The position numbers were made by a program, and so were the translations under genes. A DNA stretch of 64,000 nucleotides from Zanthoxylum bungeanum (lineage: Eukaryota > Streptophyta > Magnoliopsida > Sapindales > Rutaceae), in assembly GCA_019454045.1 (NCBI GenBank), contig SKCR01033665.1:186001-250000 (forward strand). The letters are read 5' to 3'. The notes under the pieces were generated by a model. It had not been told where the DNA came from. It searched no databases and worked only from the letters and a program-made list of their open reading frames with translations. This document shows, piece after piece, positions 5,269-64,000 of the stretch (positions are counted from its first letter, which is position 1; each line of letters opens with the position of its first letter).

Positions 5269-7234
5269 TGTTGGACAATTATGACCCATAGCATCACTAT
5301 TTATACAGAACATTGTGTTGTTGTACAAATTAACTATGTGACAAAGGAAATTGCTCTTTTATCAATTGTAATTGGATTACCGGGATATATAAAGGATAAA
5401 AGTCCATATGATTAGTTCAGATTAATAATATATGAGATAGTATTAATCCACTAGTTTTAATCATTAAAACATCCATATTCTTAGTATTATCGAGATTAGA
5501 CATCGATAATTCGGAATATCTAGTATTACACTTGTGCGTGTTATGGGAGCATAACGTCATAGTTCTCATATATTTGGGTATTGGATACTCATGAAAGTGT
5601 AATAGGAGGTTGTGTTTACCGATGGTACGGAAACAGCTTCGCTCTGGATAGACCCATCAGAATTCCATTGGTAGTATGACTATGTACTATGGAAGTCTGA
5701 ATCAGGGTAGATGTATTTGGTCTTAACCTGAGACTTGCATCGCTAATACTTGCGACAATCAAATACTTTGGTTTTGGTCGTCCAGGGCTTTAACAGGTTT
5801 ATGTATGCCTCTTCTGGGTATATTGAGAATCGTATGTAGTGGGTGTGATGTCAAGATGGAAGTATCACTTCAGTCATATGGAGATGATGATCACACAGGA
5901 TACGGAACTAGTACTCTTTAGTACTGCAATCATCGGGATAATATGACTAGGTCATGATTATCCTATTATAGAGACTAGTTACCAGAGATCCGATATGTGC
6001 TTCGTACGAGGCAGACACAATTCCAGCCCCAGGCCTAGCACGTGACATCTGATACTGGATCACAATACGCAATACTACGTATACTACGCCTGATACAGAT
6101 CATATATTCATTTAAGAATATTTCTGGAGAATTGGGTAGGCACGGTGCTTTGCTAGAAGCCAACCATGTCTTGTAAATCAGTAAAAACGTAGTACTAGGT
6201 ACGTACGTGTTCCGATAGTCCGACGACCGGATTTACTGCCAACATATCCAAGGATCTCATGGGTCGCTTCCCGAAGATTCACCGATGACGTTTGACTCGA
6301 ACATAATTAATCTAGGATTAATTATAAGAGAGAGAAAATTAATCTGGGATTAATTACAGAGAATTTTATCTGGGATAAAATTCAATTATAAGAGAGAGAA
6401 CGATTAATTTGGAATTAATCGATAAAATAATATATTCGATATATTAAACGAAATTAGATTTCGACTCGGAATTAAAATTGGATTTTAATTCGGGCAAACG
6501 AGTTAATTTAGAATTAATTCGTTAGCGACGTGAATAGTAATTTTGCTAGGCATAATTATTTAATTAAATTTGATTTAATTACGTCGTAACGGAAATTCGT
6601 TAATTCGGAATTAACGAACCCGAGCCCGGAATGTGTTTATGAGGCCACTCCGATTTTGAATCAAGTGTGGCCACAAATCACATCGTAAGTCACTCACATG
6701 TCACATCCACTTTTTGTGATGTGTGTCATGTCACTTTTTTGGTGATGGAGGTGGTTGAGAGCAATTAATGCTCTTTTCCCTCCAAATTGCTTTTGGAAAG
6801 CATATACCAAAAAGGGTTTTGACTTTGGAAAATTACTTGGTAATTGTTTTAGAAAACAAATACACCACTCTCTCCATCTTTCTCCATCATTCACGCCTCC
6901 CTCCCTCTTTTGCAAAGGCTTGGCAGAATCAAGCAAAGGAAGAAGAAGAAAATTGTGGCAATTTTCTAAGGTGCTAGCACACTTCAAATGAGTCATTACA
7001 AAGGTGATAGGGAAACCCATCTATGAGCATGGAATCCAACCACAAAGCTTGGAGCTTGGAGATCAAACATGGAGCACAAAAAGGAGGCATGGCCGAGAGC
7101 TTCAAGGAGTAGAAATTTTTTTGTTTCTTCGCATCGCAAAGCCGATCAAAGTGAGTATTTCCGCAACTTTACTTTGATGTATTCACACGTTTATATGCTT
7201 AATATGATCTTGGTTTGACCTAGAAAACCCAACA
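5269..7234 (+). repeat. 3' LTR of Copia A
   Basis: It starts TGTTGGACAATTATGACC directly after the polypurine tract AAGTGGGAGAT (5258-5268). It ends CCCAACA at 7234, giving 1966 bp. It is homologous to the LTRs at 35642-37647, 40721-42696, 43320-45323 and 51248-53236. Inside, near 6300-6420, are copies of the near-palindrome ATTAATCTGGGATTAAT. Confidence 0.9.
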
Positions 7235-32975: not shown

Positions 32976-33756
32976 TCAGGTCGAATTTAATATATAAGGA
33001 AAATCAATTTTATAAACTGAAAATATTGGGTTTCATTACAATCTCAGATTAAAGGTTTAGTTACTACACATGCTCAAAAACTCTAAATAAATAATCAATG
33101 GTAAACGAAACATCAAAAAAGTAAAGGGAAGAAGAAACTTTGTCGAGATCGTCAGTCCTTCGTTTCCTACTGTTGAGTTATGTGCTTATGCTTGCCTGAT
33201 ATGCTTTGTTTTCTCTCAAGAATCACTTTGGATGCTGCAAAATTAGGTTATGAGAGTCTCCCCTGGTTTTGGAATGAGTTTTAGCTTATATAAGAAGTCT
33301 TATGGATGTTTCCTTGTTGAAGACGATTCTAATTTACGCAAATAACGTTGCGACGCAGATGGATTGGCTTCACAACACTCGATTTCTTCATCGGTGCGTC
33401 GCGACGCGTCATAGCCGTCGCAAAGCACATTTGGCCTTCATCGGCGTGTCGTGACACGCCCATCGCTGAACTCTATGTCTGTTTTTTCTTAATGTGCGTG
33501 TCTCGACGCACAATCCAGCATCGGGCCACGCGTTTTCACTCAGAATTTAACCCAATTTGCGTCGGGACGCACGATTTGACTCTGAATTTACTTCATATTT
33601 TGTCGTTATCATCCCTCGTTGATTTCATTGAGTCTCGATATCATTTTAACCTGCAAAATAAACCCAAAACACATCAAAACCTCATAAAAATCGAGATAAC
33701 TCTCAAAACATCAAGCTAGAGGGGCGTGCAAATATATGCATATTGTTTGCTCATCA
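32976..33756 (-). repeat. Athila-like LTR J, truncated
   Basis: On the minus strand it starts TGATGAGCAAACAATATGC at 33756, just after a purine-rich GTTAAGTTTTGGGTG tract. Its first 150 bases resemble the start of the F1 and F2 LTRs (TGATGAG, then a GTTTTG..GTGTTTTG..TTATTTTGCAG block). A TATA box is at 33292-33285. Four variants of the palindrome GCGTCGCGACGC lie at about 33396, 33450, 33499 and 33558. The downstream end is lost near the LINE. Confidence 0.65.
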
Positions 33757-34620
33757 CACCCAAAACTTAACATTTTGCTAGTCCTCAAACAAAACAAAAA
33801 AAGTAAAATAAATTAAAATAAAGCAATTAACTTAAGCCACTTTTGTAGGGATCACGATTGCATTTAGCGTATGCAACAAGCCTTTAAACCTCTAGGTGGC
33901 CCTAGTGGACGAGTTGTAGTCTCGTGAGGGCTTACAGCGACGACACCCATAAACTTCATTTAACATGCACATGTATTCACACAAAAATAAAATAGTCATA
34001 ATAGTTATACATAACATTATCCTCAAAGAGTGCTCAGTAATGAAACCAAAGAACCTTCAAAGTATAATTTATCTAAGTTAGACTCACAATATGTGTGTAA
34101 AGGTTTGGTCACAACTTGAATCCTTAGAAAGCCAACTTAGTGATTTTGTCTCAAAAATTGGGATCTGATGAGTCAAACCAACCTAAATATCTCAAAAGTG
34201 TTTTGTATTTGCATATTAAGCTCAAGATGATATGAATTTTTTTAAGTCACCTACCCTTTAAGACATCATTTCTCCTTATGGTGGTCCTAACACTCGCCCA
34301 TGGGTAACTTCACGCTTATCGATTATATTTATAGGTGGTGTATTTCTTTATTTTCAAAATATTTTTCTTTTCAACTAATTTCATTCTTCCATTTTGTTTT
34401 GTTTTTTGTTTTTTGTTTTTAAATTTAGCCATACCCTAAATCATAAATAATTGCAAACAAAGACAGATATCTAAGCAAACGGTCATTCATCGTCAAACAA
34501 TTTTCTTAACTAATTACTTTGCCAATTTCCTTGGTTCTTACTGCTAGAAACCTACTTTTAAGTGCATACGAGTCTAACCTAGATCATCTGCTCAAGGCAT
34601 CATATAAAAGTAAATTACGT
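33757..34620 (-). other. Athila-like 3' UTR of element J
   Basis: Noncoding. The minus-strand text GAGGACTAGCAAAATG just before the LTR is a conserved phrase upstream of the 3' LTR in Athila and related plant Gypsy elements. No ORF with a domain is present. Confidence 0.5.
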
Positions 34621-40561: not shown

Positions 40562-40720
40562 TGATGAGTGGTAATTATATCACTATTTCCCACTCATTTA
40601 ACCTAATATCTTATAAAGTTTCTCGGGTTTTATGAACGTTTTGATATGTTTTAGTTTATTTTGCAGATAAAATAAAATTGGGACTTAATGGAATCATTTA
40701 GGATGAAATATGGGTCAAAT

Positions 40721-43319: not shown

Positions 43320-45323
43320 TTTTGGAATTCTCTAAGGTCCCAATGATCATTATCAAGCAAGAAAACACATGTGAATACACAAAGAAATATGGCGGAATCA
43401 TACTCACATCGAACGGATTGGATGCTACGAAGAACAAAAATTTTATGCTCCCTCCAAGTGCATTCGGCAGTGAGGAATTTTTTATCTTCATTTTCGGCCA
43501 TGGATGGGTGAATCAAGCTCCAAGCTTTCTTCTTAAATCATTCCATGGACACATGTGGGTTTCCCTATCACCTACGGACGACTCCGGAGTGTGCTAGCAC
43601 CTTGATTTTGCAACAAAATCACTCATTTTCTTCTCTTACTTCTCACGGCAGTGAGCTAAACCAGAAGGAAGAAAACAGCCCTCATGGGCGTGAGAATGAG
43701 AGAGAAAAGAGAGATGAGAGAAAAGTTAGGTTGTGTTAAAAAAATGGTAATTGATTTTCAAAAAATCATATACACATTTTGCTTTCAAAAGTCAAAGCTT
43801 TCAAAGCCATCGAACAACTTCAACAACTCACATCACTTAATCAATCAAATTGTCACATCACTCAAAGTGACATGTGATTTGACGCTAGATGTGACTAATG
43901 ATTTGACGCTTGATGTGACTTTCGTGCCGCACTCGAATTTGAAATGCGAATGTGCTCGCAAACACTTATGGGCTCGGCTTCGCTAATTCCAAATTAACGA
44001 ATTTTCCGTTGCGACGTAATTAAATGATTATGCCTATCGAAATCACTATTCACGTCGCTAACTAATAATTCTAAATTAACTCGTTCGCCCGAATTAAAAT
44101 CTAATTTTAATTCCGCGTCGAAATCCAATTTCCTATAATATATCAAATATATTATTTATCGATTAATTCCAAATTAATCGTTATCTCTCTTTAAATGATA
44201 TTTTATCCCAAATAAAATATCTCCGCAATTAATCCCATATTAATTTTCTCTCTCATCGAATTAATCCCAGATTAATTAAGTGCGAGTCATACGTCATCGG
44301 TGAATCTTCGGGAAGCGACCCATGAGATCCCCAGATATGTTTGCAGTAAATTCGGTCGTCGGACTATCCGAACTCGTAAGTACCTAGTACTACGTTTATA
44401 CCGATTTACAAGACAAGGTTGGCTTCTAACAAAGCGCCATGCCTACCCAATTCTCCAGAAATATCCTTACAGGAATAAGCGATCTATATCAGGCGTAATA
44501 TACGTAGTATTGTGTATGTCGATCCAGTATCGGATGATCAGGCCTGGGGCTGGAATTGTGTCTGCCCCATACGAAGTACATGTTGGATGTCTGGTAACTA
44601 GTCTCTATAATCGGATATACATGACCTTGTCATAATATCTCGATAGCTGCAGCATTTAAGAGAACCAGTCCCGTATCCTACGTGACCATCATCTCCACTA
44701 TGACTGGAGTGATACTTCCGTCTTGACATCACACCCAACACACTACGATTCTCGATATATCCAGAAGAGGCATACATAGAAACCGGTTAAAGCCCTGGAT
44801 GACCTAAACCAAAGTATATTGATTGTCGCAAGTATTAGCGGTGCAAGTCTCAGGTTAAGACCAAATACACCTACCCTAATTTCGGACTTCCATAGACACA
44901 TAGTCATACTACCAATGGAATTCCGAGGGGGTCTATCCAGAGCGAATCTGTTTCCCGTACCATCGGTAAAACACAACCTCCTATTACACTTGCATGAGTA
45001 TCCTATACCCAAATAAATGAGAACTATGCCGTTGTGCCCTCACAACGCGCACAAGTGTAATACTAGTCTTTTACGTATTTATCGATGTCCAATCTCGATA
45101 ATACTCTGACTAAGGATATTTAATGATTTATCCTTCGTGGACTGATACTGTCTCATATCATTCTCAATCCAGGAATAAATCATAGAGACCTTCTATCATT
45201 TATACATCTAGGTGATCTAATCACAAATGATAAGAGTGCAATCTCCTTTGTCACATAGTTAATTTGTACAACAACACCATTATCTGTACAAATAGTGACG
45301 ATATGGGTCATAATTGTCCAACA
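43320..45323 (-). repeat. 3' LTR of Copia H
   Basis: 2004 bp, full-length homologue of 51248-53236. It abuts the polypurine tract at 45324 and the target duplication at 43319. Confidence 0.92.
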
Positions 45324-51247: not shown

Positions 51248-53236
51248 TGTTGGAATTCTCTAAGGTCCCAAGGATCATTATCAAGCAAGAAAACACATGT
51301 GCATACACAAAGAAATATGGCGGAATCATACTCACATCCAACGGATTGGATGCTACAAAGAACAAAAATTTTCTGCTCCCTCCAAGTGCATTCGGTAGTG
51401 AGGAATTTTTTATCTTCATTTTCGGCCATGGATGGGTGAATCAAGCTCCAAGCTTTCTTGTTAAATCATTCCATGCACACGGGTGGGTTTCCCTATCACC
51501 TACGGATGACTCCGGAGTGTGCTAGCACCTTGATTTTGCAACAAAATCACTCATTTTCTTCTCTTACTGCTCACGGCAGTGAGTTAAAACAGAAGGAAGA
51601 AAACAACCCTCATGGGCGTGAGAATGGGAGAGAAGAGAGAGATGAGAGAAGTGTTAGGTTGTGTTAGAAAAATGGTAATTGATTTTAAAAAAATCATATA
51701 CACATTTTTCTTTCAAAAGTCAAAGCTTTCAAAGCCATCCAACAACTCCAACAACTCACATCACTCAATCAATCAAATTGTCACATCACTGAAAGTGACA
51801 TGTGATTTGACGCTTGATGTGACTTGCGTGCCGCACTCGAATTCGAAATGTGAATGCGCTCGCAAACACTCATGGGCTCGGGTTCGCTAATTCCAAATTA
51901 ACGAATTTTCCGTTGTGACGTAATTAAATGATTATGCCTAGCGAAATCACTATTCACGTCGCTAACGAGTTAATTCTAAATTAACTCGTTCGCCCGAATT
52001 AAAATCTAATTTTAATTCCGCGTCGAAATCCAATTTCGTATAATATATCAAATATATTATTTATCGATTAATACCAAATTAATCGTTATCTCTCTTTAAA
52101 TGATATTTTATCCCAGATAAAATATCTCCGTAATTAATCCCATATTAATTTTCTCTCTCATCGAATGAATCTCAGATTAATTAAGTGCGAGTCATACGTC
52201 ATCGGTGAATCTTCAGGAAGCGACCCATGAGATCCCCAGATATGTTGGCAGTAAATTCGGTCATCGGACTATCCGAACACGTAAGTACCTAGTACTACAT
52301 TTATACCGATTTACAAGACAATGTTGGCTTCTAGCAAAGCGCCATGCCTACCCAATTCTCCAGAAATATCCTTACAGGAATAAGCGATCTATATCAGGCG
52401 TAATATACGTTGTATTGCGTATGTCGATCCAGTATCGGATGATCACGTGCTAGGCCTGAGGATGGAAATGTGTCTGCCCCGTACGAAGCACATGTCGGAT
52501 GTCTGGTAACTAGTCTCTATAATCGGATATACATGACCTTGTCATAATATCCCGATAGCTGCAGTATTTAAGAGAACCAGTCCCGTATCCTACGTGACCA
52601 TCATCTCCACTATGACTGGAGTGATACTTCCGTCTTGACATTATACCCAACACACTACGATTCTCGATATACCCAGAAGAGGTGTACACAGAAACCGGTT
52701 AAAGCCCTAGATGACCAAAACCAAAGTATATTGATTGTCGCAAGTATTAGCGGTGCAAGTCTCAGGTTAAGACCAAATACACCTACCCTGATTTCGGACT
52801 TCCATAGACACATAGTCATACTAGCAATGGAATTCTCGAGGGGGTCTATCCAGAGCGAAGCTGTTTCCCGTACCATCGGTAAAACATAACCTCCTATTAC
52901 ACTTGCATGAGTATCATATACCCAAATATATGAGAACTATGCTGTTGTGCCCTCACAACGAGCACACGTGTAATACTAGTCTTTTACGTATTTATCGATG
53001 TCCAATCTCGATAATACTCTGACTAGGGATATTTAAAAATTCATCCTTCATTGACTGATACTGTCTCATATCATTCTCAATCCAGGAACAAATCATAGGG
53101 ACCTCTTATCATTTATACATCTAGGTGATCTAATCACAAATGATAAGAGTGCAATCTCCTTTGTCACATAGTTAATTTGTACAACAACACCATGATCTGT
53201 ACAAATAGTGACGCTATGGGTCATAATTGTCCAACA
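51248..53236 (-). repeat. 5' LTR of Copia H
   Basis: 1989 bp. On the plus strand it starts TGTTGGAATTC and ends GTCCAACA, followed by target duplication GGGTG. Confidence 0.93.
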
Positions 53237-53314
53237 GGGTGAAGCTTTTATTATTTTAGTTTAGATCAATCTCCCTTAATTATAATATTAAAATTATAAT
53301 TTAAATTAAATGAT

Positions 53315-53502
53315 TACTGCCTTAATGGCTGGTTTTATTTATTTGACATAATGTGACACCGCCTATATGGTCGGTTTTTAGGTGACAGATGATTACCACC
53401 TATATGGTTGGTTTATGCACAAATAATAACACCGCCTTTTTGGTCGGTTGGACTTAATTGAAAATCTGACTTAATGAGGATACCGCATGTATGGTCGGTT
53501 GG
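53315..53502 (+). repeat. Five ACCGCC...GGTCGGT hairpin units in F1 LTR
   Basis: Variants of ACCGCCTATATGGTCGGT occur at about 53316, 53358, 53395, 53431 and 53482. ACCG and CGGT halves are complementary. The same motif occurs five times in the F2 LTR (58148-58347). Confidence 0.75.
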
Positions 53503-54324
53503 TAATATCACTGATAATTTCTATATTATAATACGAGAGATTTCTAAATTAGAAATAGTAAAGGTGGATCCCTTAACCCCAGTATCTTATTTTTATTCTA
53601 GGGAAGTGATGAAACACAATATTAACAAGCTTAATAATTGATTTAATTATATTATGGGCAATTCCTTAGTTTGTTTATTGAATCTTAACCCTAATATTTC
53701 TTGTTGCCTGATCACCAATAAGATTGATGTGGTAAACTTAAAATGAACTTGGAAAAGGGATTTTAGGTTTCAGCCTTAGATTCAATAGCTCACGATCTTC
53801 CTTGAGGATATATAACCCTTTAATAGATTTCCTTACAGATTAGGAATATACTTGTCTGGCGTGGGTAGCCATAACTGGTACTTGAACTTAATGAATTCAG
53901 ATAACTTGGTTAACATAGGAATATGATTAATTGGGTTATACTGGGTATTTGTGTCTGACTATTGGAAGAGGCTTTTGCATATATTCGTGTTCCAGGTTAG
54001 CAAACTGATTTATTACACATATATAAGAGAATCAATTCATCATTAGAATAATATTGTGTGGAATCACAACCTTAGATATTTATGTCTTTTTTTTCCTTAG
54101 TATTTTCTTTTGTATATTTATTTATTTATTTATTCAGCAAATCCACAGTCAACCAACCAAAAGCAATCATTCCCTTCTCCATTTAATTAGATACCTGTAA
54201 ATAAATAGAATCAATAATTAATAACAACAGTAGAAATTAAGTCCTTGTGGGATCAATATTTTTATACTACTTGAACAATAAGTGCACTTGCGTTATACGT
54301 GTGTGATCACGCCGGTCAAGTTTT

Positions 54325-54342
54325 TGGCGCCGTTGCCGGGGA
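54325..54342 (+). other. Primer binding site of F1
   Basis: TGGCGCCGTTGCCGGGGA, six bases after the LTR end. It is complementary to the 3' end of plant aspartate tRNA and is the usual primer site of Athila-like elements. Confidence 0.88.
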
Positions 54343-54444
54343 CTTATTTTTCTTGAGTTATTAATTTTGAAGCTATCTATTTTACTTGTATATAATTTTC
54401 TTTATTTTTATGTGTAATTTTTATTCCCTTCTTTTATTTTTCAG

Positions 54445-55344
54445 ATGGTTGACAAGGATCTTAGTTTGGTGATAAAGGAATTACGAGTTTTACGAGGTGA
54501 AGATACATCCCAAATCAGCGAGCAACAGTCCAGTTTTCTGAGGCCTGTTATCCATCCTAACAACTATCCTTGGATGTCAGAGTCATTCAACACAACATTT
54601 GCTCAACAGAACGCAATGGGGAGATGTGAGATATGTGATGGTAACCACCCAAGCATAAACCACTATTACAATCCAGGGTGGCAGAATTATCAGAATCCTT
54701 CAAGGGACGAAGAACCAGCATATTTCACTGAACCTTATTATCCATCTTATCCACCATCAACCTACGATCTTCATCAAAAACCAAAACCATCAAAGGAAGA
54801 TCAGGTGATTGACATGCTCAAAGATTGGTTCAAGAAACAAGACGAAAAGTTGGATACAATACTTGAAACATTCTATAATCAATTCGAAAGTATTCAGAGA
54901 CAATCAACATCCATTCAGAGACTGACAGATCAAACGAGACAATTAACAGAAAACCAGAGCTACATACCTCACGAAATATTTTCAGATGAAACTGGTGAAG
55001 CCTTCGAGTACCCAGAGTTTCACAATGACACCTTAACAGAGGAAGAGGTTGAGCAATATCAACAACTAGAGGTATCAATTCAGGAGCCCAAATCATTAAA
55101 GTCTCAATTTGATTTTTATTATTCGGACTCTGACGAGGATGAATGAGCAGAGCTGTTTGTGCCAACAAAAATTGAGGATGAAATTATGTATCCTAAAAAT
55201 GAAGATCTTGGAGCATGCATTGCACTAATGTTTGAAGAAGATCTATCTGAGCCAGTTACATCAACCTCAGAGGATGAAGACCTAAAATCTGACATCTCTT
55301 TACATCCTCAGGGTGTATTTATGGAGCATGCATTTCACAGATGA
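54445..55344 (+). pseudogene. F1 ORF1, Gag-like acidic protein
   Basis: ATG at 54445 follows a pyrimidine-rich stretch ending in CAG. A first frame of 233 codons ends at TGA (55144-55146); the same frame continues to 55344, and F2 has a sense codon there. Near residue 56 is CEICDGNHPSINHY, reminiscent of the Athila Gag zinc-knuckle region. NPGWQNYQNPS follows, close to the NPGW block of Athila Gag. A Pro/Tyr-rich stretch and a helical segment (IDMLKDWFKKQDEKLDTIL) lead to a strongly acidic tail (SDSDEDE). The Gag capsid core upstream of this region is missing. The role in packaging is inferred from position and these fragments. Confidence 0.55.
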
Positions 55345-55844
55345 CAGATGAAGAATTGAATGCGGAAATACTAAAATACATCCGTGAAGAAAATGTGGAG
55401 AAAGAAGTAGAGCAAATGGAGGAGCAATTTTAAGAACTTGAGCATTCAAGAGAAACATCACTGTTTTGGAGAGTACAAATTACATATATCGCCCAAAAGC
55501 TTGACAGAATGGAACTCTCATTCCAAGTCAAGCACCATACGAGACCTCCTGATTTTCTTTCTTTCTTTTCAGGAACCACTGGAGGGATAAATATAAAAAA
55601 GGTGGCACAAGCACTGAATGAGACAAAATTCTTTTTGCCACTTTACCGTTGGAAGAGACCTTTCAAAAGCAATGTCCATGTAATTTGTTGTAATTTTTGT
55701 TTTCATATTTTATGTATACATGTTGTAGAGTTTTTAATTTTGTGTGTTAGTTTTTCAGAGAAAAGCACAAACGGAGCATTTAAGAAGAAATTATGTTTGG
55801 CAATCACAGAGACGAGAGCTAATTCATTAGTAATGGCTGAGTAA
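55341..55844 (+). pseudogene. F1 ORF2, unknown protein shared with F2, broken
   Basis: It begins MTDEELNAEILKYI at 55341 and breaks near 55430. After a frame change it resumes with ETSLFWRVQI, FQVKHHTRPPDF, FFSGTTGGINIKKV and PLYRWKRPFKSN (to about 55680). I recognise no family. The basic C-terminal part occupies the place of the end of Pol in Athila elements and may be a pol remnant. Compared with F2, about 90 bases are deleted after KRPFKSN, so the remainder to 55844 is out of context. Confidence 0.5.
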
Positions 55845-56138
55845 AGAATCGATTCTTAAGACTCATCCTAATGAATTTATACTAAGCGAGTGGCGTATTG
55901 ATTACACAATTCTGTTGCCTTAATAATTGTTTTGGTTTGCTTTTATGTTGTAATTATCTTTATTTTCTCCGACAGGATCTAGATTTTTTTACCTTTCACG
56001 ATTTATTTTATTTAGCTAACAATCGTCTTTTGGAAGATACTAGTGCTATTATTACTCATCCTTTTCAGTTACTATAAATTCAGCTCATCATTGCACTTTT
56101 GAAGGCATCCAGGTTTGAGAAAGAAGTACAAAAAAAAA
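55845..56138 (+). other. Spacer between F1 ORF2 and LOG
   Basis: Noncoding in F1, and closely similar to F2 at 62210-62527. This shows that the junction between retroelement sequence and LOG was already present in the common ancestor. It contains TTCTCCGACAGGATC, and F2 has CGTAGACAGGATC, a possible conserved splice acceptor. Confidence 0.55.
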
Positions 56139-56792
56139 TTGGAAGCCACTTTAAGAGGATGAGTTGAGAACATTTGTGCGTTTTACGGTACTAGTGTTGG
56201 TACTAAGCCACAATACGTAGAGGCAACACATGAATTGGGCCGAGTTATTGCTGCAAGGAATATGCACCTAGTATATGGCGGTGGCAATCTTAGACTTATG
56301 GGGATCGTTTCAAAGGCCGTACAGGAAAGAGGCAATCAAGTTTTGGGAATAATCCCAAAACCCTTGGCGGAGGCGAACCTTATTGGATCATCAAATAGAG
56401 AGGAACTGATCGTGCGGGGTATGTCTAAACGACTAGTAGAAATGATTAACTGTGCTGATGCTTTTATTGCTTTTCCAGGTGGCTTGGGCACAATGGAGGA
56501 AATTTTTACAGTATTATCATGGGCGAACTTGAACATACACCAAAAACCGCTTGGACTGTACAACGTTGATGGATTTTATTATTTTCTTTGTGTGTTTCTT
56601 GATGATGTCCGAAGAAATGGGTTCGTGTCAAAACCTGTAAAAGAACTCCTCTTCACTGCCAGAACTGCCCCATATTTAATTGACCAAATCTTAGCTTTTG
56701 AACCATAAATTGACCCTATCATTTCAAAGATAAATTGGTCTGAGAATGATCATGGTAAGAGGCGTCGGATTAATCTGGATCTTAACCTTTAA
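56139..56792 (+). pseudogene. LOG cytokinin phosphoribohydrolase captured in F1
   Basis: LOG enzymes release active cytokinin bases from their nucleoside 5'-monophosphates in the cytosol and nucleus. A single frame of 217 codons runs without introns. Visible family motifs are NICAFYGTS near the N-terminus, LVYGGGN (Tyr at codon 46), VLGIIPKPLAE, MSKR (Arg at codon 98) and FPGGLGTMEE (codons 112-121, the PGGxGTxxE signature with catalytic Glu). GLYNVDGFY and a C-terminal RRRINLDLNL follow. The length matches normal LOG proteins. The start ATG has become TTG (56139), codon 8 is TGA (56160-56162), and codon 190 is TAA (56706-56708, CAA in F2). Codon 52 is Arg where Gly is usual. From 56235 to 56708 it is open. 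A short N-terminally truncated product is possible; activity is doubtful. Confidence 0.85.
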
Positions 56793-57006
56793 CTTTTCAT
56801 TTTGATGTAGAATTTCAGCTAACCAAGCACTATCTTCTAAACTCTTCTTCTATTGTTTAAGACATTGGGGACAATGTCTCATTTAGGTTTAGGGGAGGGG
56901 ATTAGTTGACTAGTATTTTGTTTTTATTTTGTATGATGTTTATATTTTTATTCCAAAATTTTTCGATGAATACAAAAAAAAATTGAAAGCTTTTACAAAA
57001 AATCAA
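56793..57006 (+). other. F1 3' UTR with Athila-type ACATTGGGGACAATGT motif
   Basis: Contains ACATTGGGGACAATGT (56862-56877) and a purine-rich TTTAGGGGAGGGGA, as in Athila-like elements downstream of pol. The same text in F2 is at about 63245-63285. It is cut at 57006 by the start of the F2 LTR. The last five bases, ATCAA, are a candidate target duplication. Confidence 0.65.
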
Positions 57007-57309
57007 TGATGAGTGGTATTTATATCACTATTTCCCACTCATTTAATCTAATATTTTGTATAGTTTCTTGAGTTTTGTGAATGTTTTGAAGTGTTTTGTG
57101 TTATTTTGTAGATAAATAAAGTTTGGAAAGCACTGGAGGCAATTTGAGGCAAAACCGGACAAAAATGCGTCAACAGGGATATTTTCGTCTCTTCAACGTC
57201 GCGACGCTGGAACACTGCGCGCCGCGACGCCCAGCGTGCGCCGAATCTGCTAACATGCGCCGGGTCCACAAATTCAGAATCTGAGAAAAGTTGACTTTGC
57301 TAAAATGCG

Positions 57310-57760
57310 CCGTGCCACGTGTCACCATCACAACGAATCTGCTAACGTGCGCCGTGCCATGTGTCAACATCATATGCTGCCGACACTTTGACTTGACACG
57401 TGTCGCCTTGTCATCAGCCATGTCAGCGGTCAACGAGTCAACTCGCCATGTGTCACGCCACGTCATCAGCCACGTCACAAGGTCAACCAAGTCAACTTGA
57501 CACCTCATCATCAGCCAATCACCCACCGCGTGACACGTGTCGCCACGTGTCGCAATCCTATTGTGCCGACAATTGCAACACACGCCAACACACGCCAGCG
57601 CCACGTCATCGCCACATCAGCGCCACGTCATCGCCACATCAGCATGACGTCATCAATGACGTCATCACAATAATTGAGTCTTAGCCGCCTTGCCACGTGT
57701 CCGCTTCAACAGTCAGCCGCCATGCCACGTGTCGCCTTCTCATCGTGCCACGTCAACCAA
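57310..57760 (+). promoter_or_regulatory. ACGT-element cluster (G-box and CRE-like) in F2 U3
   Basis: CACGTG occurs at 57316, 57397, 57534, 57544, 57694 and 57726. The palindrome TGACGTCA occurs at 57645 and 57657, and several CCACGTCA elements lie between, all within 520 bases upstream of the TATA box at 57831. These are classic plant bZIP/bHLH binding cores. The cluster grew from short GCCACGTGTC / GCCACGTCATC repeats. A regulatory role, for example stress or ABA response, is inference. Confidence 0.6.
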
Positions 57761-57830
57761 ATAGTGAAAAATCCAGCGTCGCGACGCTGAGGGCTTGGCG
57801 TCGCGACGCTGAAACAGTGAAAAATATTTC

Positions 57831-57838
57831 TATAAATA
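57831..57838 (+). promoter_or_regulatory. TATA box of F2 LTR
   Basis: TATAAATA, about 45 bases downstream of two GCGTCGCGACGC palindromes (57776-57787 and 57798-57809) and upstream of a CTCTCT-rich tract typical of plant transcription start regions. Confidence 0.65.
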
Positions 57839-58147
57839 CTGCGCGAATTTTCAGAATTTAGACACACCTCTCTCTCTTGATTTCTCTCTCTAGAGAGAGT
57901 TTATCTCTCTAGAATTTTTATTTTTATTTTTATTTTTAGTTTTTTTATTTATTTATTTGTAATTTATTTTTATTACCATTTGTAATAATAGTAATTAATT
58001 TTTACTTTTTACTTTTTACAGTTTTTACTATTCATGAGAAAGTAATTTCCCAGCTAGGGTGAAAGGTAATTCTTTTACTGTTACTATTTAGATTAATCTC
58101 CCTAAAAATAATATATTAACTATTTAAAATTCTGATTAATAAAGGAA

Positions 58148-58347
58148 TACCGCTATATTGGTCGGTTGGTATATTTATTTTCTGTTAGTTTGAACCTGAT
58201 TAATCAAGGATACCGCCAGATTGGTCGGTTTATAAATTTATTTGGTACCGCCGCCTTTATGGCTGGATTATGGACAAATATTACCGCCTATATGGCTGGT
58301 TGGACTTAATTGGACTTAATCAGGATACCGCCAGATTGGTCGGTTGG
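58148..58347 (+). repeat. Five ACCGCC...GGTCGGT hairpin units in F2 LTR
   Basis: Variants of ACCGCCAGATTGGTCGGT at about 58148, 58212, 58256, 58282 and 58326, separated by AT-rich sequence. F1 has the same number. Confidence 0.75.
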
Positions 58348-59243
58348 TTAAATATTTCATAAGTTTATATATTATTTTATGGGAGATATCTAAATTAGTA
58401 GTAGTAAAAGTAATTCCTTTTACCTTAGCATTTTATTTTATTGTAATTTACTTTTTAGCATTTTATTTTATGTCTTTTAATTTTATGTTTTTACTAGTTA
58501 TAATTATGTGTTAGTTTTTCTAAGGTTGTGATGAATTTCAATATCACCGGTTTATAAGGGTTAGATTATAGTTTGGGTAATATAATGATTTTTTATTGAG
58601 TCTTAATCTTAATGCTTTTTATTAACCGATCACTATAAAATTGATTAGGTAAACTTAAAATGAACTAGACATAGAGATTTTAAGTTTAAAACCTTAGACT
58701 CAATAGCCAACGATCTTCCTTGAGGATAGATAACCCTTTAATAGATTTCCTTACAGGATAGGAATATACCTGTCGGGCGAGGGTAGCCATAAATTGGAAC
58801 TTAATCTTAATGAATCCAGATAATGTGGTTGACATAGGAATATGGTTCAATTGGTTATATACTGGGTATTTGTGTCTGACCATCGACAGATGCTTTCGCA
58901 TAATTTCGTGTCCAGGTTAATAAATCATTGTATTTCCTAACTATAAAATAATCACTTCATCTTTTATGATATTGGAATAAATCACAACCCTAGATCTTTG
59001 TGTCTTTTGTTATTTTCCTTAGTATTTTCTTTTGTCCTTTTATTTATTTATTTTGCAAAGCCACACTCAACCAAACAAACAAACAATCTCTCTCTTATCC
59101 ATTTAATTAGATATTTGTATTAAATAGATTCAACAATTAATAACAACAGTAGGAAATAAGTCCTCGTGGGATCGATTTTTTATACTACTTGAACGATACG
59201 TGCGCTTGCGTTATACGTGTGTGTTTACGCCGGTCAAGTTTTT

Positions 59244-59261
59244 TGGCGCCGTTGCCGGGGA
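59244..59261 (+). other. Primer binding site of F2
   Basis: TGGCGCCGTTGCCGGGGA, identical to that of F1 and complementary to the 3' end of plant aspartate tRNA. Confidence 0.88.
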
Positions 59262-59376
59262 CTTAAATTTCTTGAGTTGTTAATTTTGAAACTATCCAAT
59301 TTACTTATATCTAATTTTCTTTCTTTTATTTTGTAATTTTTATTTCTTTTGTTTTCAGGTGAAAAAAAAAAAAAAA

Positions 59377-60176
59377 ATGGAACACTACTGGGAGATTGAG
59401 AAATCACGAGCGTTACAAGAAGATACACCCCAAATCTGGGAGCAACAGTCCGGTTTTCTGTGGCCTGTTGTCGAGCCCAATGATTATCACTGGATAACAG
59501 AACCAAGTAATACTACTTTTGCTCAACAAACTCAATGTGGGGAGATGTGGTAACATATGTAATGGTACCCACCCGCGATTTGACAACTACAATTCAGGGT
59601 GGCAGGAACTATCAGAATCCTTCATGGTATGATGAGCCATCACATTTCACAGAACCATCACATTTTCCATCTTATCCACCATCTTCCCTCGATCCTTATC
59701 AAGAACCAGAACCATCCGAGGAAGATCAATTAATTCACATGTTCAAAGAACAAGAAGCTCGATTTGATGCACAAATTCATAGTAACGCAGAATCCATACA
59801 GAGAATGACAGATCAAATCAGACAATTAATAGAAAACCAGAACAAAATACCTCAAGAACCAGTTTCTGATGGCACTGATGAAGCCTTCGAGTACCAGAAA
59901 TCCACAATGACACCTTAACAGAGGAGGAGGTTGAGCAGTATCAACAACCAGAGGTATCAGTTCAGGAACCCGAACCGGCAAAGTCTCGATTTGATTTCTA
60001 TTATTTAGATTCTGACGAGGATGATGAAACTGAGCTGTTTGTGCCAAATACATCAAAAATTGAGGATGGAATTCTGTATCCTCAAAGTGAAGATCTTGGA
60101 GATTCCATTGCACAAATGTTTGATGAAGAAATACCTGAGCAATCATTTCAACCAGATCAGAGGATGAAGACCTAAA
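59377..60176 (+). pseudogene. F2 ORF1, Gag-like acidic protein, frameshifted
   Basis: ATG at 59377 lies after a run of 15 A. It is homologous to F1 ORF1: QEDTPQIWEQQSGFL, then a break near 59545, NYQNPSWYDEPSHFTEP in a second frame, QRMTDQIRQLIENQ, a second break near 59895, and DFYYLDSDEDDETELFVP in a third frame, ending near 60176. The zinc-knuckle-like region seen in F1 is destroyed by the first frameshift. The two copies together suggest an ancestral protein of roughly 270-300 residues. Confidence 0.55.
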
Positions 60177-60212
60177 ATCTAACATTTCTTTTCAGGTTGA
60201 AAATTTTGAAAC

Positions 60213-60623
60213 ATGTATTCACAGATGACAGATGAAGAGCTGAATGCAGAAATTTTCAAATACATCTGTGAAGAAAAGGTGGAGCAAGAAGCAGAGCAAA
60301 TAGAAGAGCAAATATCTGACCTTATTAAAGACCCAGAGCATTCAGGAGAAACATCGCTGTTTTGGGGAGTACAAATCAAAGAAACCACTCAGAAGCTTGA
60401 CAAAATGGAATTTCCATTTCAAGTCAAGCACCATACGAGACCTCCTAATTTTATTACTTTCTTTTCAGGAACCAATGGAGCAACAAGGATCAAAAAGGTG
60501 ACACGAGCATTGAATAAGACAAAATTCTTTTTAACACTTTACCGTTGGAAGAGACCCTTCAAAAGCAACGCTCACGGGATTGTCTTTAATCGGACATCCA
60601 AAACGACATTGAAACCTCCTTGA
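60213..60623 (+). CDS. F2 ORF2, unknown 136-residue protein
   Basis: Open from ATG 60213; a second ATG at 60225 (MTDEELNAEIF) is the one shared with F1. The N-terminal half is acidic and helical (EEKVEQEAEQIEEQ). The C-terminal half is basic, with FQVKHHTRPPNF, FFSGTNGATRIKKV and LYRWKRPFKSNAHG. I know no family with these motifs. The frame is intact here and broken in F1. The downstream GCAGGGAGGCAACCCATG (about 60674-60691) resembles the sequence after Pol in Athila-like elements. The second half may therefore derive from Pol, but a new fusion protein is possible. Confidence 0.5.
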   Translation: MYSQMTDEELNAEIFKYICEEKVEQEAEQIEEQISDLIKDPEHSGETSLFWGVQIKETTQKLDKMEFPFQVKHHTRPPNFITFFSGTNGATRIKKVTRALNKTKFFLTLYRWKRPFKSNAHGIVFNRTSKTTLKPP

Positions 60624-60744
60624 TAAATAAATTTCAGTCACGTCTGGCTGAAGACGAAAAATTTAGCGCTAGCAGGGAGGCAACCCATGCAATTTGTTGT
60701 AATTTATTTAATTATTTATTTTTGTGTGTGAACTTTTTAATTGT

Positions 60745-60924
60745 GTGTAGTTTTGCAGGAAAAATTAAAATGGAATTTATCAGGACAAAGCAAGCCAGTA
60801 CAAGCGGGATTTTCACAAAATAAAAATTTGACAAAATCACGAAGATACAAAGTTGATCCAGAAAAGACGGCCGAGTAAGAGTAAGAAGTCTTATGGATTT
60901 ATCTGTCGCAAGACATGGTTTTGC

Positions 60925-60968
<44 letters not shown>

Positions 60969-62095
60969 GAGTCAAAACCCTAACCCTAAAGAACCGAGTG
61001 TCGCGACGCTAGGCAATTTTTGGCGTCGCGACGCTGACTCGAAATCAGAGACATAAGCAGAGTGCTGGCAGCATCTCCTTTCACTCTTCATCTTCTTCAT
61101 CCTCAACCAATCACCTACCAAAAACCAGAAACCCATCTTCACCACCAGCCGCACCTACAACCGAACCACCATCAAACCAAGATCCACCCCTTGTCGTGAC
61201 CGAAACCCACCAGCCACCGAACCGAAATCGAGTCCCATCGTGACCGAGTCTTCGCCAGCCGAGATCCACACCGTGAGCAGCCACCAAGAACCAAGCTTCG
61301 CCGAATCCACCGAAACTCAGCAGCTACCGACGCCGTGACCGAGCCCTTTCCTCGCCGAGTCAAAACCGATCTTCATCAACCACTCACGACCGAACAAAAC
61401 CGAAACAGAGCCATGTCCAGCCACCATCACCGAGAGATCCACCAGCTGAGACACCAAAGCCGCGAAACCACCACTGCCAAGTCCACCACCGAGAGTCACC
61501 AGAAGCCAACCCACTGCCGATACACCTACCTTTACCGAAACCTTACTAAAACCGAGCCTCACCGGAGCTACCACTGCCAACCACAGCAACCGAAACCGAG
61601 CCTCAACAAATCAAACCCAAGTTCAAATCGATCCGATCCTTCACTGCCAAAATCAAAATTAAGGTAATGATTTGATAAAAAAATGATTTGGTAATTGGGT
61701 AATTGAAAAATTGAATTGTGAATTGGTTGAGTGTGGATTGGATTACGAAAGTGTTGGATGGTTGAATTTGATCGTCGTAGTATTGGGGGCGAAGAAATTG
61801 AGTTTGATATTGGAGTGTTTGTGGCATTTGATAGATTTAGGTTGTGTTGGATAATCAAAAATTCAGGGGAGACTCTGTCGGATTTTTCTAAAAAATGCCA
61901 AAGTTGGGATTTGATGGTGATAATTTTTTAGAATGAATTTGGGGAGATTTTAAATTTTTAAGGAGACTCTGTCGAAATTTTCACTAAAAAAATCGTCAAG
62001 TATCAATTGGACATAAATTTTCCTATCGGTAATTTTTCCTGTAAAATTTCAGCTGACTAGGTAATATCTTCTAATCTCTTTTGTGTATACATAGT
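60745..62095 (+). other. Extra block in F2 absent from F1
   Basis: Flanked by related copies of ACTTTTTAATT...GCAGG (about 60730-60765) and ACTTTTTAATT...GTAGGG (about 62099-62132). It contains 39 consecutive A (60926-60964), CCCTAACCCTAAA, two GTCGCGAC palindromes (about 61001 and 61027), a CCACC/CCGAA-rich stretch (61060-61660) and an AT-rich segment that follows AAG|GTAATG at about 61664. This looks like the R/U5 or first exon-intron of another element or gene. The open frames inside are low-complexity, and I call no gene. Confidence 0.5.
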
Positions 62096-62527
62096 GTGAA
62101 CTTTTTAATTTTGTATGTTATTTTTGTAGGGAAAAGCACAAGCAAAGCATTTTAAGACAGAAAGAATTATGTTTGGCAATCAAAGATGAGAAACAATTCA
62201 TTAGCGATGGCTGAATAAGGAATGAAATCTTAAGACAAATCCTAATGAATTTATACTACGCGAGTGGCGTATTGCATACACAATTCCGTTGCCTTAATTA
62301 TTGCTTTGATTCGCTTTTCTTTTGGAATTATCTTTATTTTCGTAGACAGGATCCAGACTTTTTGACCTTTCACGATTCATTTTGTTATTTAGCTAACAAG
62401 CTTCCTCTGGAAGATACTTGTGCTATTATTTTATTCACCCTTTTCAGGTACTATAAATTCAGCCCGTCATTGCACTTTTGAAGGCATCCTGATTTGAAAA
62501 AAAAAAAAAAAAAGAAATACATAAAAA

Positions 62528-63184
62528 ATGGAAGCCACTTCAAGAAGACGAGTTGAAAACATCTGTGTGTTTTGCGGTAGTAGTAGTATGTTGGTACTAA
62601 ACCACAATACATAGAAGCAGCACAGGAATTGGGTCGAGTCTTAGCCGCAAGGAATATACACTTAATATATGGCGGAGGCAATCTTGGACTTATGGGGATT
62701 GTATCAAAGGCGTACAGGAAGGAGGCAGTCATGTTTTGGGAATCGTACCAAAACCCTTGGCAGAGGCTAACCTTATTGGATCATCAAACGGAGAGGAACT
62801 GATCGTAAGGTATGTCTGAACGACTGGTAGAAATGATTAACCGTTCTGATGCTTTTATTGCTTTGCCAGGTGGCTTGGGCACATTGGAGGAAATTTTTAT
62901 TGTACTATCTTGGGCGAACCTAAACATACACCAGAAACCAATTGGGCTGTACAACGTTGATGGGTTTTATGATTTTCTTTGTGTGTTTCTTGATGATGCT
63001 CGGAGAGAAATGGGTTCGTGTCGAAACCTATGAAAGAACTCTCTTCACTGCCAGAACTGCTCCGGATCTAATTGACCAACTCGTAGCTTATGAACCACAA
63101 GTTGACCCTCTCCTTTCCAAGATAAAATGGTCCGAGGACGATCGTGGGTAGAGACGTCGAATTAATCTGGATCTTAACCTGTAA
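62528..63184 (+). pseudogene. LOG cytokinin phosphoribohydrolase captured in F2, frameshifted
   Basis: It retains the start ATG (62528) and NICVFCGSS, lost or altered in F1. After that come an insertion of 5 bases near 62582 and small deletions or insertions near 62710, 62808, 63005 and 63035. Family motifs remain readable across frames: [44 protein letters not shown] (about 62865-62895, the PGGxGTxxE signature) and [11 protein letters not shown]. The end INLDLNL stops at 63182-63184. No introns. F1 and F2 have different lesions, so the ancestral copy was probably intact when these elements moved. Confidence 0.85.
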
Positions 63185-63703
63185 TTTCCTGTAGAATTTC
63201 AACTAACCAGGTATTATTTTCTAAACTCTTCTTCTACTGTTTAAGACATTGGGGACAATGTCTCATTTAGGTTTGGGGGTGAGGTATAGTTAATAGTACT
63301 TGTTTGTATTGTGTTTTTATTTTTAGTCCAAAATTTTTCGAAAAATACAAAAAAAAAAATTGAAAAATTTTCAAAAATTACAAAAATATTTTGCTTTTTT
63401 TTTGTGTTTTTATTTTAACTAAAAAGGTGAATTGGTAAGAAATAGCCGAGTAAGGAGTTTCCACTCTTGAGACGTATTTCAAACCATTTATTTCGAAATA
63501 AGTTAATTTTTGTTTATTTCCTTTTGAATTATTTAATTTGTGAATTCTCCATAATACTGACTAAAATGAATCTTCATATGCTCATTTGACAGGTATTATC
63601 AACATACATAGTAACATACAGACATGAGCTGTAATGTAATTGAAAAATTGTAATATTCCGTGCTATCTAGTTAATTGGAGGAAGCATCTCTAAATAGTGA
63701 TGG

Positions 63704-63736
<33 letters not shown>

Positions 63737-64000
63737 ATGATATATAAAAAAATAAAGTATCTAAGATCCGGGTTATTAAGTCTGTAAGGGTGTTTTAACA
63801 CCAGTGCCCTAAAACCAACTGGTTTGGGAGTCATTGGCCCAAAGCTCGTTACATGGATCGAAGATACTGCAAAAAAATATATTCATATCTGAAGTCTGAG
63901 TAATTAAGTTCGTAGGGGTGTCTTAACACCTGGTGCCTAAAGCCAACTGGTTTGGGAGTCACCAACCCAAAGCTCGCTACATAGATGGAAGATATTGTAT
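63185..64000 (+). other. F2 3' UTR with 128-bp tandem repeat
   Basis: ACATTGGGGACAATGT at about 63246 is followed by GGTTTGGGGGTGAGG. Further on there is a run of 26 A near 63709-63734. From about 63760 two units of 128 bases follow (GGTTTGGGAGTCA at 63821 and 63949). Such AACTGGTTTGGGAGT repeats are of a type seen in Athila-like 3' regions. No gene seen. Confidence 0.6.

Follow-up and report, generated by a model that had tools for sequence, protein, structure and literature searches.

Organization of the locus

The window, i.e. the whole stretch of 64,000 nucleotides analysed here from Zanthoxylum bungeanum, carries two copies of a LOG gene (F1 and F2), each lying within an LTR retroelement unit. 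When the contig was read 10 kb beyond the window, unit 2 appeared as a complete LTR element nested in the older unit 1. The two copies of one unit described by an initial sequence-only reading are thus real, but they do not stand side by side, since unit 2 is inserted whole inside unit 1. The features are listed below, where L009 denotes the contig stretch 3' of the window (L009 557-2778 corresponds to window-equivalent positions 64557-66778).

53238..54318, + strand: unit 1 5' LTR, short LTR variant (start uncertain by a few bases)
54325..54343, + strand: unit 1 primer-binding site, presumably of tRNA-Asp type, read from the sequence
54445..55694, + strand: unit 1 gag-like ORF, broken (stop-to-stop open 54418-55146; tblastn with the L010 ORF, 67-72%)
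55955..56079, + strand: unit 1 LOG leader, two acceptor-like CAG sites and TATAAAT (56073-56079), from alignment, with a putative function
56139..56792, + strand: LOG copy F1, start lost, two in-frame stops, no indels, end ...RRRINLDLNL
56860..56905, + strand: unit 1 3' UTR, GGGGACAATGT / purine-rich stretch, within a block matching unit 2
57002..57006, + strand: target-site duplication ATCAA flanking unit 2 on its left, repeated at L009 2779-2783
57007..59236, + strand: unit 2 5' LTR, 2.2 kb, TGATGA...GGTCA (3' LTR at L009 557-2778)
59244..59262, + strand: unit 2 primer-binding site, presumably of tRNA-Asp type, read from the sequence
59598..60620, + strand: unit 2 gag-like ORF, broken pieces (tblastn, 57-78% to the L010 ORF)
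62340..62458, + strand: unit 2 LOG leader, TATAAAT at 62452-62458, read and aligned
62528..63184, + strand: LOG copy F2, with its start codon, several short indels and a single stop, end ...RRRINLDLNL
63185..64000, + strand: unit 2 3' UTR, read from the sequence, continuing beyond the window to L009 556

The unit 2 LTRs are 98.0% identical (17 substitutions over 2202 aligned bp and a further 36 gap positions; K2P 0.0078), whereas the unit 1 pair (53236-54318 against L009 4773-5858) matches at 94.5% (K2P 0.051). The partner LTR of unit 1 lies outside the window on its 3' side, at about L009 4775-5858, and no target duplication was seen at the unit 1 ends. The 3' UTR of unit 1 is broken off by unit 2 soon after the purine-rich stretch.

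F1 and F2 share 85.7% identity across 644 bp, and the larger matching blocks of the two units 77.9% (2132 bp) and 83.2% (1323 bp). Their layout is the same overall, with primer sites of the type initially proposed in both, except that about 1.5 kb between the gag-like ORF and LOG in unit 2 is absent from unit 1. The separate 'Gag-like' and 'unknown' ORFs of the sequence-only reading are probably fragments of a single ORF, which spans 374 codons in the part of the relative L010 that was read and there weakly resembles the C-terminal part of gag (26%, E 1.5e-5).

The LOG gene and its recurrence in the genome

F1 belongs to the PF03641 family (E 5.8e-34, 117.5 bits for a cut-off of 27), the best solved-structure match of LOG being Arabidopsis At2g37210 (E 3.4e-47), and it aligns with all 217 residues of a database relative at 79.7%. 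As initially described, F1 is a single 217-codon frame without ATG and with stops at codons 8 and 190, free of indels, and the lesions of F2 lie elsewhere: its ATG is present, several short indels occur, and codon 207 is a stop.

A PF03641 profile search of the source genome (3.96 Gb) gave 47331 first-look candidates, of which 150 were scored. All 150 were above the cut-off, at 126-130 bits (126.5 bits for the LOG of element L025), and 147 had no stop in the matched stretch. A second search used 281 bp of the unit 2 3' UTR, not LOG, as query; 40 of 40 scored matches, including the window's own, were retained, which leaves 39 further copies. Twenty of these were fetched, on other contigs, and every one has LOG directly upstream of the 3' UTR; in 18, one alignment covers 648 or more of the 651 bp. 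In 19 of the 20, LOG is preceded by the same kind of leader, comprising a CAG site and, 46-72 bp ahead of the start, TATAAAT. Given the E-values and this recurrence, chance can be dismissed, and the presence of LOG in LTR elements is a confirmed observation. The LOG frame is unbroken in only six of the 20 copies and lesioned in 14; after masking of indel codons, 19 show no in-frame stop, suggesting that the damage is recent or that the indels arose in assembly.

The sequence-only reading had placed the capture of an intronless LOG before the copies split and were amplified, a view supported by the recurrence, the shared leader and the LTR pairs. It would have fallen had the junction been confined to this locus; further junctions were found, as were uninterrupted frames. 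A genome search with an ordinary plant LOG, aimed at the host donor, was swamped by element copies.

In the leader alignment, an acceptor-like site is present in 27 of 27 rows (26 distinct) and TATAAAT in 25, which makes the conserved leader a candidate spliced leader or internal promoter. In P0010, from another lineage and 64% identical in LOG, the same leader encodes an N-terminal peptide.

Carrier elements and their viral-type ORF

The carriers of LOG comprise gag-pol elements (observed at five loci), gag-PR-only derivatives and gag-like-ORF-only derivatives. The two window elements, with both LOGs broken, belong to the last class. The carrier had been called non-autonomous, which fits the window copies, but other LOG-bearing elements encode gag, protease, RT, RNase H and integrase. 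A Pfam scan identified RT, RNase H and integrase in the LOG-bearing L025. In L016, L020, L022 and L023, pol is combined with LOG and, just ahead of LOG, an ORF resembling viral nucleic-acid-binding proteins (NABP-like ORF); L025 has pol, a 59-residue piece of the NABP-like ORF and LOG. The LTR, primer site and gag were found upstream of L025 and L022, and L029 and L030 contain the 17-base primer site without mismatch. Paired LTRs, the primer site, the RT-RNase H-integrase order and the unit 2 target duplication identify these elements as Ty3/gypsy. From the primer site and 3' UTR we take the family to be of Athila/Tat type; a Pfam scan of six ORFs returned no Athila domain. LOG is a sense, intronless frame of about 217 codons, preceded by pol, the gag-like ORF or the NABP-like ORF and followed by the 3' UTR.

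All seven NABP-like sequences pass the cut-off of the viral NABP family PF05515, and six are at or over that of PF01623, L013 being below. A basic KKRRAK run followed by four Cys is invariant in the six aligned sequences. The structure model of this ORF has a pLDDT of 44.9. By Pfam, the ORF is related to viral cysteine-rich proteins (CRPs).

Selection on LOG

The F1-F2 pair, which was not chosen for LOG, gives a dN/dS of 0.250 (p 1.0e-7 against neutrality), and F2-L025 gives 0.098 (p 4.9e-13), L025 having been picked by LOG score. The estimate among element-borne copies that had been called for is about 0.2 within the 3'-UTR set, i.e. purifying: the median is 0.225 over 187 pairs of the 20 copies, and 0.188 (pooled 0.223) for the 18 copies left without the truncated L117 and L122; these 18 against L025 give 0.105. 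Pooled counts are 1098 nonsynonymous and 1508 synonymous without L117 and L122, and 3895 and 2725 with them, a clearly weaker signal. The value of 0.194 for 15 own copies (14 distinct) is biased because picking by LOG score lowers dN/dS. For the gag-like ORF of five elements, the median of 10 pairs is 0.631. LOG is thus very likely an accessory gene under selection in the element family. Since F2 is broken within near-identical LTRs, either a copy moves without a working LOG or its frameshifts are assembly errors.

Origin and known parallels

In a LOG tree that included five ordinary plant LOGs, 35 element-type rows form one clade (96/97), and element-type and plant LOGs are set apart from bacteria (99/92). 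On sequence grounds, the element LOG is derived from plant LOG stock, its clade lying beside the ordinary plant LOGs, and a single old capture is probable. Relatives in the clade come from Populus, Citrus, Xanthoceras, Malvaceae and metagenomes, the members in other species entering the analysis as database proteins. The ordinary plant LOGs AtLOG3, AtLOG8, P0069 and P0087 (Ziziphus) share the family, the motif and the catalytic Arg/Glu with the element LOG. P0069 and P0087 are 41-42% identical to F1; P0069, P0077 and P0087, seen to their ends, lack the basic plus LxLxL end; and AtLOG3, unlike nearly all element LOGs, has a canonical base/prenyl pocket.

An element that spreads LOG had been thought unusual, but Alvarado-Marchena et al. 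(2022, PMC9289625), citing Steinbauerova et al. (2011), already noted a YgdH (LOG) domain in Gypsy elements of Populus trichocarpa and of two Citrus species, C. sinensis and C. clementina. In the LOG tree, three Populus proteins and one from Citrus group in the same clade as the element LOGs described here. The passages of PMC9289625 on these elements give domain presence only, selection, tail, pocket, NABP-like partner, copy classes and nesting being absent from them. No earlier account of LOG selection, the tail, the changed pocket or the viral-like partner was found in the literature searched. In Phalaenopsis, too, Gypsy elements have an additional enzyme gene that is fixed in the lineage, an AlkB m6A-demethylase ORF (PMC9289625); the enzyme family and the plant are different. 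In maize Grande and other elements with additional ORFs, the extra gene likewise follows pol and precedes the 3' LTR (PMC7264820). The Grande accessory gene gives a nuclear protein from its own promoter, according to a title in the reference list of that article; its ORF is antisense, with no known role stated in the relevant passages, whereas LOG is sense and of plant LOG origin. The parallel initially drawn with maize Bs1, which also holds host gene sequence in an LTR element, is a poor one: transduced ORFs of that kind are described as having one or few copies (PMC7264820), whereas LOG is an old resident accessory gene of a large family, kept by purifying selection.

Tail and catalytic pocket

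Tails were scored in the 95 proteins new in one database search, of which 83 end in LxLx[LMIV] with at least three K/R in the preceding 12 residues; none of 79 bacterial LOGs does. In the LOG model of P0002 (pLDDT 86.7), residues 202-217 are below 50, so that the EAR-type LxLxL would lie in a predicted exposed end. The EAR motif is linked to TOPLESS. The Cannabis P0069, an ordinary plant LOG, carries an LNLNL stretch near its end, which suggests that the LxLxL of the tail may predate the capture.

LOG retains the PGGxGTxxE signature and the Arg noted initially: all 15 own open frames, representing 14 distinct sequences, keep the catalytic R99 and E122, as do 105 of 122 database proteins. In the same CgLOG numbering, a Lys and a Glu of the pocket are common to AtLOG3, CpLOG and CgLOG, as given in PMC4979012. 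K100 is present in none of the 15 own frames and in five of the 122 database proteins; E125 is lost in all 15 and in 117 of 122. The full canonical set is found in only five of 122 (P0032, P0033, P0035, P0038 and P0206). The Citrus type (P0048, P0061 and P0063; P0048 represents 79 member sequences) lacks the catalytic Glu as well as two glycines of the motif. Because most members have lost this conserved Lys and Glu pair from the base/prenyl pocket, the term 'cytokinin-activating' is unproven, as is the hormone activation initially assumed.

Possible explanations

The overall best explanation, which we consider fairly probable, is that a large Ty3/gypsy family carries LOG as a resident accessory gene. 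Two LOG copies within 7 kb could recall a local duplication of a host LOG with retroelements inserted later. This is refuted by the LOG found before the same 3' UTR in 20 of 20 copies on other contigs, by the absence of introns and by unit 2 being an entire element flanked by a target duplication of its own; the likelihood of a local duplication is negligible. That LOG would be a useless hitch-hiking passenger is very improbable: both window LOGs are indeed broken, as are 14 of the 20 copies picked by 3' UTR, but 19 of these are stop-free after masking, and the dN/dS of 0.250 for the window pair and 0.19-0.23 for the 3'-UTR set, neither sample being LOG-chosen, contrast with 0.63 for the gag-like ORF.

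The remaining alternatives concern what is selected. LOG could be a true hormone gene, raising active cytokinin and thereby favouring division, meristem identity and heritable transposition. Its plant LOG origin, the kept catalytic pair and the conserved leader are in line with this, and of the viral CRPs, to which Pfam relates the neighbouring ORF, one causes hyperplasia (PMC12172455). We hold it rather unlikely, as the pocket Lys and Glu of AtLOG3, CpLOG and CgLOG (sites from PMC4979012) are replaced in nearly all members, with the canonical set complete in so few; cytokinin as the real substrate is likewise doubtful. The same losses, which affect K100 and E125 each in 117 of the 122 database proteins and jointly in all 15 own frames, together with the degenerate Citrus type and a well-conserved tail, could instead indicate a domain kept for a non-catalytic role (nuclear adaptor, nucleotide-signal sink or dominant-negative partner of the host's LOG), enzyme activity being vestigial. 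The retained active-site motif, with R99 and E122 both in 105 of 122 and 15 of 15, speaks against a mere scaffold, as do the 126-130 bits of the 150 scored own matches, and such a role appears unlikely. In our view, the enzyme is somewhat more probably still active than inactive in this species.

As a resident accessory gene, LOG could be expressed through its CAG/TATAAAT leader, by splicing or from an internal start of the message, and the protein would dimerise as other LOGs do. Its basic tail may direct nuclear entry, a nuclear action that we rate at a little under even, and it would there be a nucleotide phosphoribohydrolase with a changed base pocket. The LxLxL end might recruit a TOPLESS-type co-repressor, so that the cell divides, or silencing or defence is damped, and transposition is favoured. 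More speculatively, and in our view improbable as a whole, LOG and its neighbour could form a two-gene, virus-like host-manipulation module. It would combine a viral-type cysteine-rich NABP, whose relatives are silencing suppressors or transcription factors, with a nuclear LOG that was captured once long ago, lost its pocket residues, gained or kept the LxLxL tail, acts on a non-cytokinin nucleotide (possibly a defence or silencing signal) and recruits a co-repressor.

Implications

If the module reading is true, LOG would rank among the oldest enzyme genes that plant LTR elements have retained (Populus, Citrus, Xanthoceras, Malvaceae, Zanthoxylum), and LOG elements may manipulate the host cell beyond merely copying themselves. 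Captured host genes in LTR elements are mostly described as occurring in one or few copies (PMC7264820); here, a whole enzyme gene with its own tail and a changed pocket is kept by selection across much element divergence, and in many elements a viral-type gene adjoins it. Clade proteins in Populus are named as the host LOG LOGL10 (P0130, P0192); with element LOGs annotated in this way, LOG counts and conclusions about cytokinin may be inflated. The role of accessory genes in plant retroelements becomes directly testable.

A young element nested in an older one

The window consists of plant DNA, and its two LOG copies, F1 and F2, lie in two LTR elements, units 1 and 2, respectively. The main features are as follows, L009 being the 10 kb that follow the window on the contig.

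56139-56792, + strand: LOG copy F1, scoring 117.5 bits with PF03641 (LOG family)
62528-63184, + strand: LOG copy F2, aligned to a 217-aa database relative
53238-54318 and about L009 4775-5858: unit 1 LTRs, K2P 0.051
57007-59236 (2.2 kb): unit 2 5' LTR, its partner ending at L009 2778

The best solved-structure match of F1 is the Arabidopsis LOG At2g37210. All 217 residues of the database relative are aligned with F1, which has a lost start and two stops, and F2 aligns piecewise because of short indels. Two large blocks, including the surroundings of both copies, are matched when the window is compared with itself. The sequence-only reading, which had described two LOG copies with these lesions in retroelement units, was thus correct in substance. 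It had also placed the units side by side, which does not hold. The unit 2 LTR pair is 98.0% identical (17 substitutions over 2202 bp, 36 gap positions, K2P 0.0078) and is flanked on both sides by the five bases ATCAA, and unit 1 sequence continues past unit 2 in the next 10 kb. Unit 2 is thus a complete young element within the older unit 1, and not its neighbour. A tandem pair with one common LTR was dropped, since the next 10 kb gave unit 2's own 3' LTR and the remainder of unit 1.

Further pieces that resemble two parts of the LOG-carrying family, its 3' end and the beginning of its LTR, are seen at 33651-33992 (- strand) and 40562-40683. A stretch of about 240 bp at 53000-53236 is repeated at 45087, 49946, 42461 and 37410, and inverted at 5269-5501 (82-95%). 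A stretch of about 127 bp is duplicated (78%) within the 3' UTR at 63746-63997.

LOG copies across the genome

The plant's own genome (3.96 Gb, 51,709 contigs) was searched with PF03641, giving 47,331 candidates; this figure, like the two other candidate numbers below, is a first-look number and not a verified copy count. All 150 scored matches were above the cut-off, 147 of them without a stop in the matched stretch. A 281-bp piece of the 3' UTR was then used as query, so that copies were not picked by LOG quality. It gave 2,453 first-look candidates, and all 40 that were scored match, the window's own among them. Twenty of the 39 non-window matches were fetched (the 3'-UTR set, L111-L130), and LOG lies directly upstream of the 3' UTR in every one. 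A single LOG alignment covers at least 648 of 651 bp in 18 copies, and six have an unbroken frame with a start. Further retroelement–LOG copies, and one with an uninterrupted frame, had been named beforehand as what the genome should be searched for; both were found. With indel codons masked, 19 of the 20 are free of in-frame stops. Most lesions are indels of one or two bases and in-frame stops are very rare, a pattern that suggests assembly indel errors, so that some of them may not be genuine.

A search for the host's own LOG genes gave 56,159 first-look candidates and was swamped by element copies: each of the 150 matches listed is one unspliced span, and all eight loci that were read belong to elements. 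A local duplication of a host gene, which the adjacency of F1 and F2 had left as another reading, is ruled out by the position of LOG upstream of the 3' UTR in 20/20 copies and by the nesting of unit 2 as an element.

Three kinds of carrier

Among loci with long flanks, LOG is found in gag-pol elements, in gag-PR elements and, as in the window, beside a gag-like ORF only. In the gag-pol carrier L025, RT, RNase H and integrase domains share one frame of 909 codons; L016, L020, L022 and L023 combine pol matches, LOG and an ORF resembling viral nucleic-acid-binding proteins (NABP-like ORF), which in L025 is present only as a 59-residue piece. Adjoining pieces upstream of L025 and L022 hold the 5' LTR, primer site and gag. 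L026 was left out of these five elements because its pol and LOG are on opposite strands. The carrier had been taken as non-autonomous, a description too narrow for a gene also found in five gag-pol elements. In gag-PR carriers such as L027 and L011, RT was not found in the stretches examined, and a search of window units 1 and 2 gave no pol or NABP-like match. The gag-like ORF has 374 codons in L010 and 319-326 in L131, L135 and L136, where it is cut by the stretch end. It weakly matches the C-terminal part of gag (26%, E 1.5e-5), and its 11 database relatives are all from metagenome sources.

Selection on LOG

Of the changes between F1 and F2, 39 are nonsynonymous and 40 synonymous, a dN/dS of 0.250 that departs from neutrality (p 1.0e-7). 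Comparison with L025, a copy picked by LOG score, gives 0.098 for F2 (p 4.9e-13) and 0.263 for F1 (p 1.3e-7). The F1–F2 dS of 0.34 is far above the LTR divergences, which implies that most of these changes arose while the lineages were still multiplying. All 20 copies of the 3'-UTR set, including L122 and L117, which is truncated and lacks the LOG front, give a median of 0.225 (187 pairs), with pooled counts of 3895 nonsynonymous versus 2725 synonymous changes. Excluding L117 and L122, these become 1098 versus 1508, with a pooled ratio of 0.223 and a median of 0.188. The median of the set against L025 is 0.105. Fifteen open LOG frames (14 distinct) give 0.194, a value biased by their being picked by LOG score. 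The gag-like ORF reaches 0.631 (five elements), and LOG is thus the more constrained of the two. A neutral passenger, which the broken frames of F1 and F2 could have suggested, is rejected by the F1–F2 ratio and by the 0.19-0.23 of the 3'-UTR set.

Relatives and origin

Protein searches revealed 217-aa LOG relatives in metagenome data (58-83% identity), as well as named proteins of Populus, Citrus, Xanthoceras, Diplodiscus and Reevesia, the last two being confirmed Malvaceae; relatives of other species are known here from proteins alone. The presence of LOG domains within Gypsy elements of Citrus and Populus is already published (PMC9289625). Five Xanthoceras proteins (P0121, P0122, P0123, P0124, P0127) of 290-406 aa have repeated LOG domains.

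A bacterial origin had a sole hint in its favour, the similar identity of F1 to bacterial and to ordinary plant LOGs. It is rejected by a tree of 52 proteins, the remainder including bacterial ones, in which 35 element-type LOGs form one clade (96/97), five ordinary plant LOGs another (98/95), and both together are set apart from bacteria (99/92). The database relatives P0010 and P0012 (LOG identity 64% and 62%) have extra N-terminal residues. The leader that precedes F1 and F2 codes for those of P0010, and P0012 has their later part in common, so that the leader–LOG junction predates the split from these lineages.

A pyrimidine-rich stretch ending in CAG is present in all 27 aligned leader rows (26 distinct, L008 and L013 being one locus), and TATAAAT in 25. 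In the 3'-UTR set, the CAG site and TATAAAT lie 46-72 bp upstream of LOG in 19 of 20 copies, the exception being the front-truncated L117. From these motifs, we infer that LOG would be expressed through splicing or internal initiation. An accessory gene of Grande is reported to have its own promoter, according to a title cited in PMC7264820.

A changed pocket and an LxLxL tail

Pocket sites were taken from the CgLOG paper (PMC4979012). The 15 own open frames all keep Arg99 and Glu122, but in every one positions 97, 100 and 125 are occupied by Ser, Leu and Ile. Among 122 database LOG proteins (length 195-259, near-duplicates included), both catalytic residues are kept in 105, Lys100 is absent from 117, and the whole canonical pocket set is found in five. 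Three of these five branch off first in the tree, so that the pocket change came after capture. Citrus-type LOGs (P0048, P0061, P0063; P0048 represents 79 member sequences) have lost Glu122 and two motif glycines. Cytokinin activation by the element LOG, as first proposed, is possible, but this reading is weakened by the replaced pocket positions.

A C-terminal tail, basic and then LxLxL, is found in 83 of 95 proteins from one of the database searches for relatives versus none of 79 bacterial controls (the readable ones of the best 80 of 575 loci in a genome contig scan, all bacterial by title). It is predicted to be disordered in the P0002 structure model.

A viral-like ORF beside LOG

The NABP-like ORF (182-192 codons) lies between PR/pol and LOG, just upstream of LOG in larger elements:

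L011 5513-6088
L027 5496-6041, - strand
L013 3975-4520

The Viral_NABP Pfam cut-off is passed by 7/7 sequences and that of Carla_C4 is reached in six; among the six that were aligned, a basic run and four cysteines never vary. The median dN/dS is 0.327 (seven open frames, six distinct; L006 and L011 have identical LOG and NABP-like frames). The predicted protein structure was of poor quality. Viral contig scans with this ORF and with LOG gave no relative. By its sequence, the product would resemble carlavirus-type nucleic-acid-binding proteins. PMC12172455 describes viral proteins of this kind as silencing suppressors, and p12 of Chrysanthemum virus B as a transcription factor causing hyperplasia.

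Meaning of the element LOG

The open-licence literature searched did not mention selection, the tail, the changed pocket or the viral-like partner of the element LOG. LOG is an accessory gene under selection in a large retroelement family, rather than a gene picked up by chance in a single non-autonomous element. The NABP-like ORF next to it in larger elements is a finding in its own right. Three Populus proteins (P0130, P0146, P0192) are named LOGL10; P0130 and P0192 fall inside the element-type clade, and P0146 was found in the same search only. The LOG annotation of host genomes may thus include element copies.
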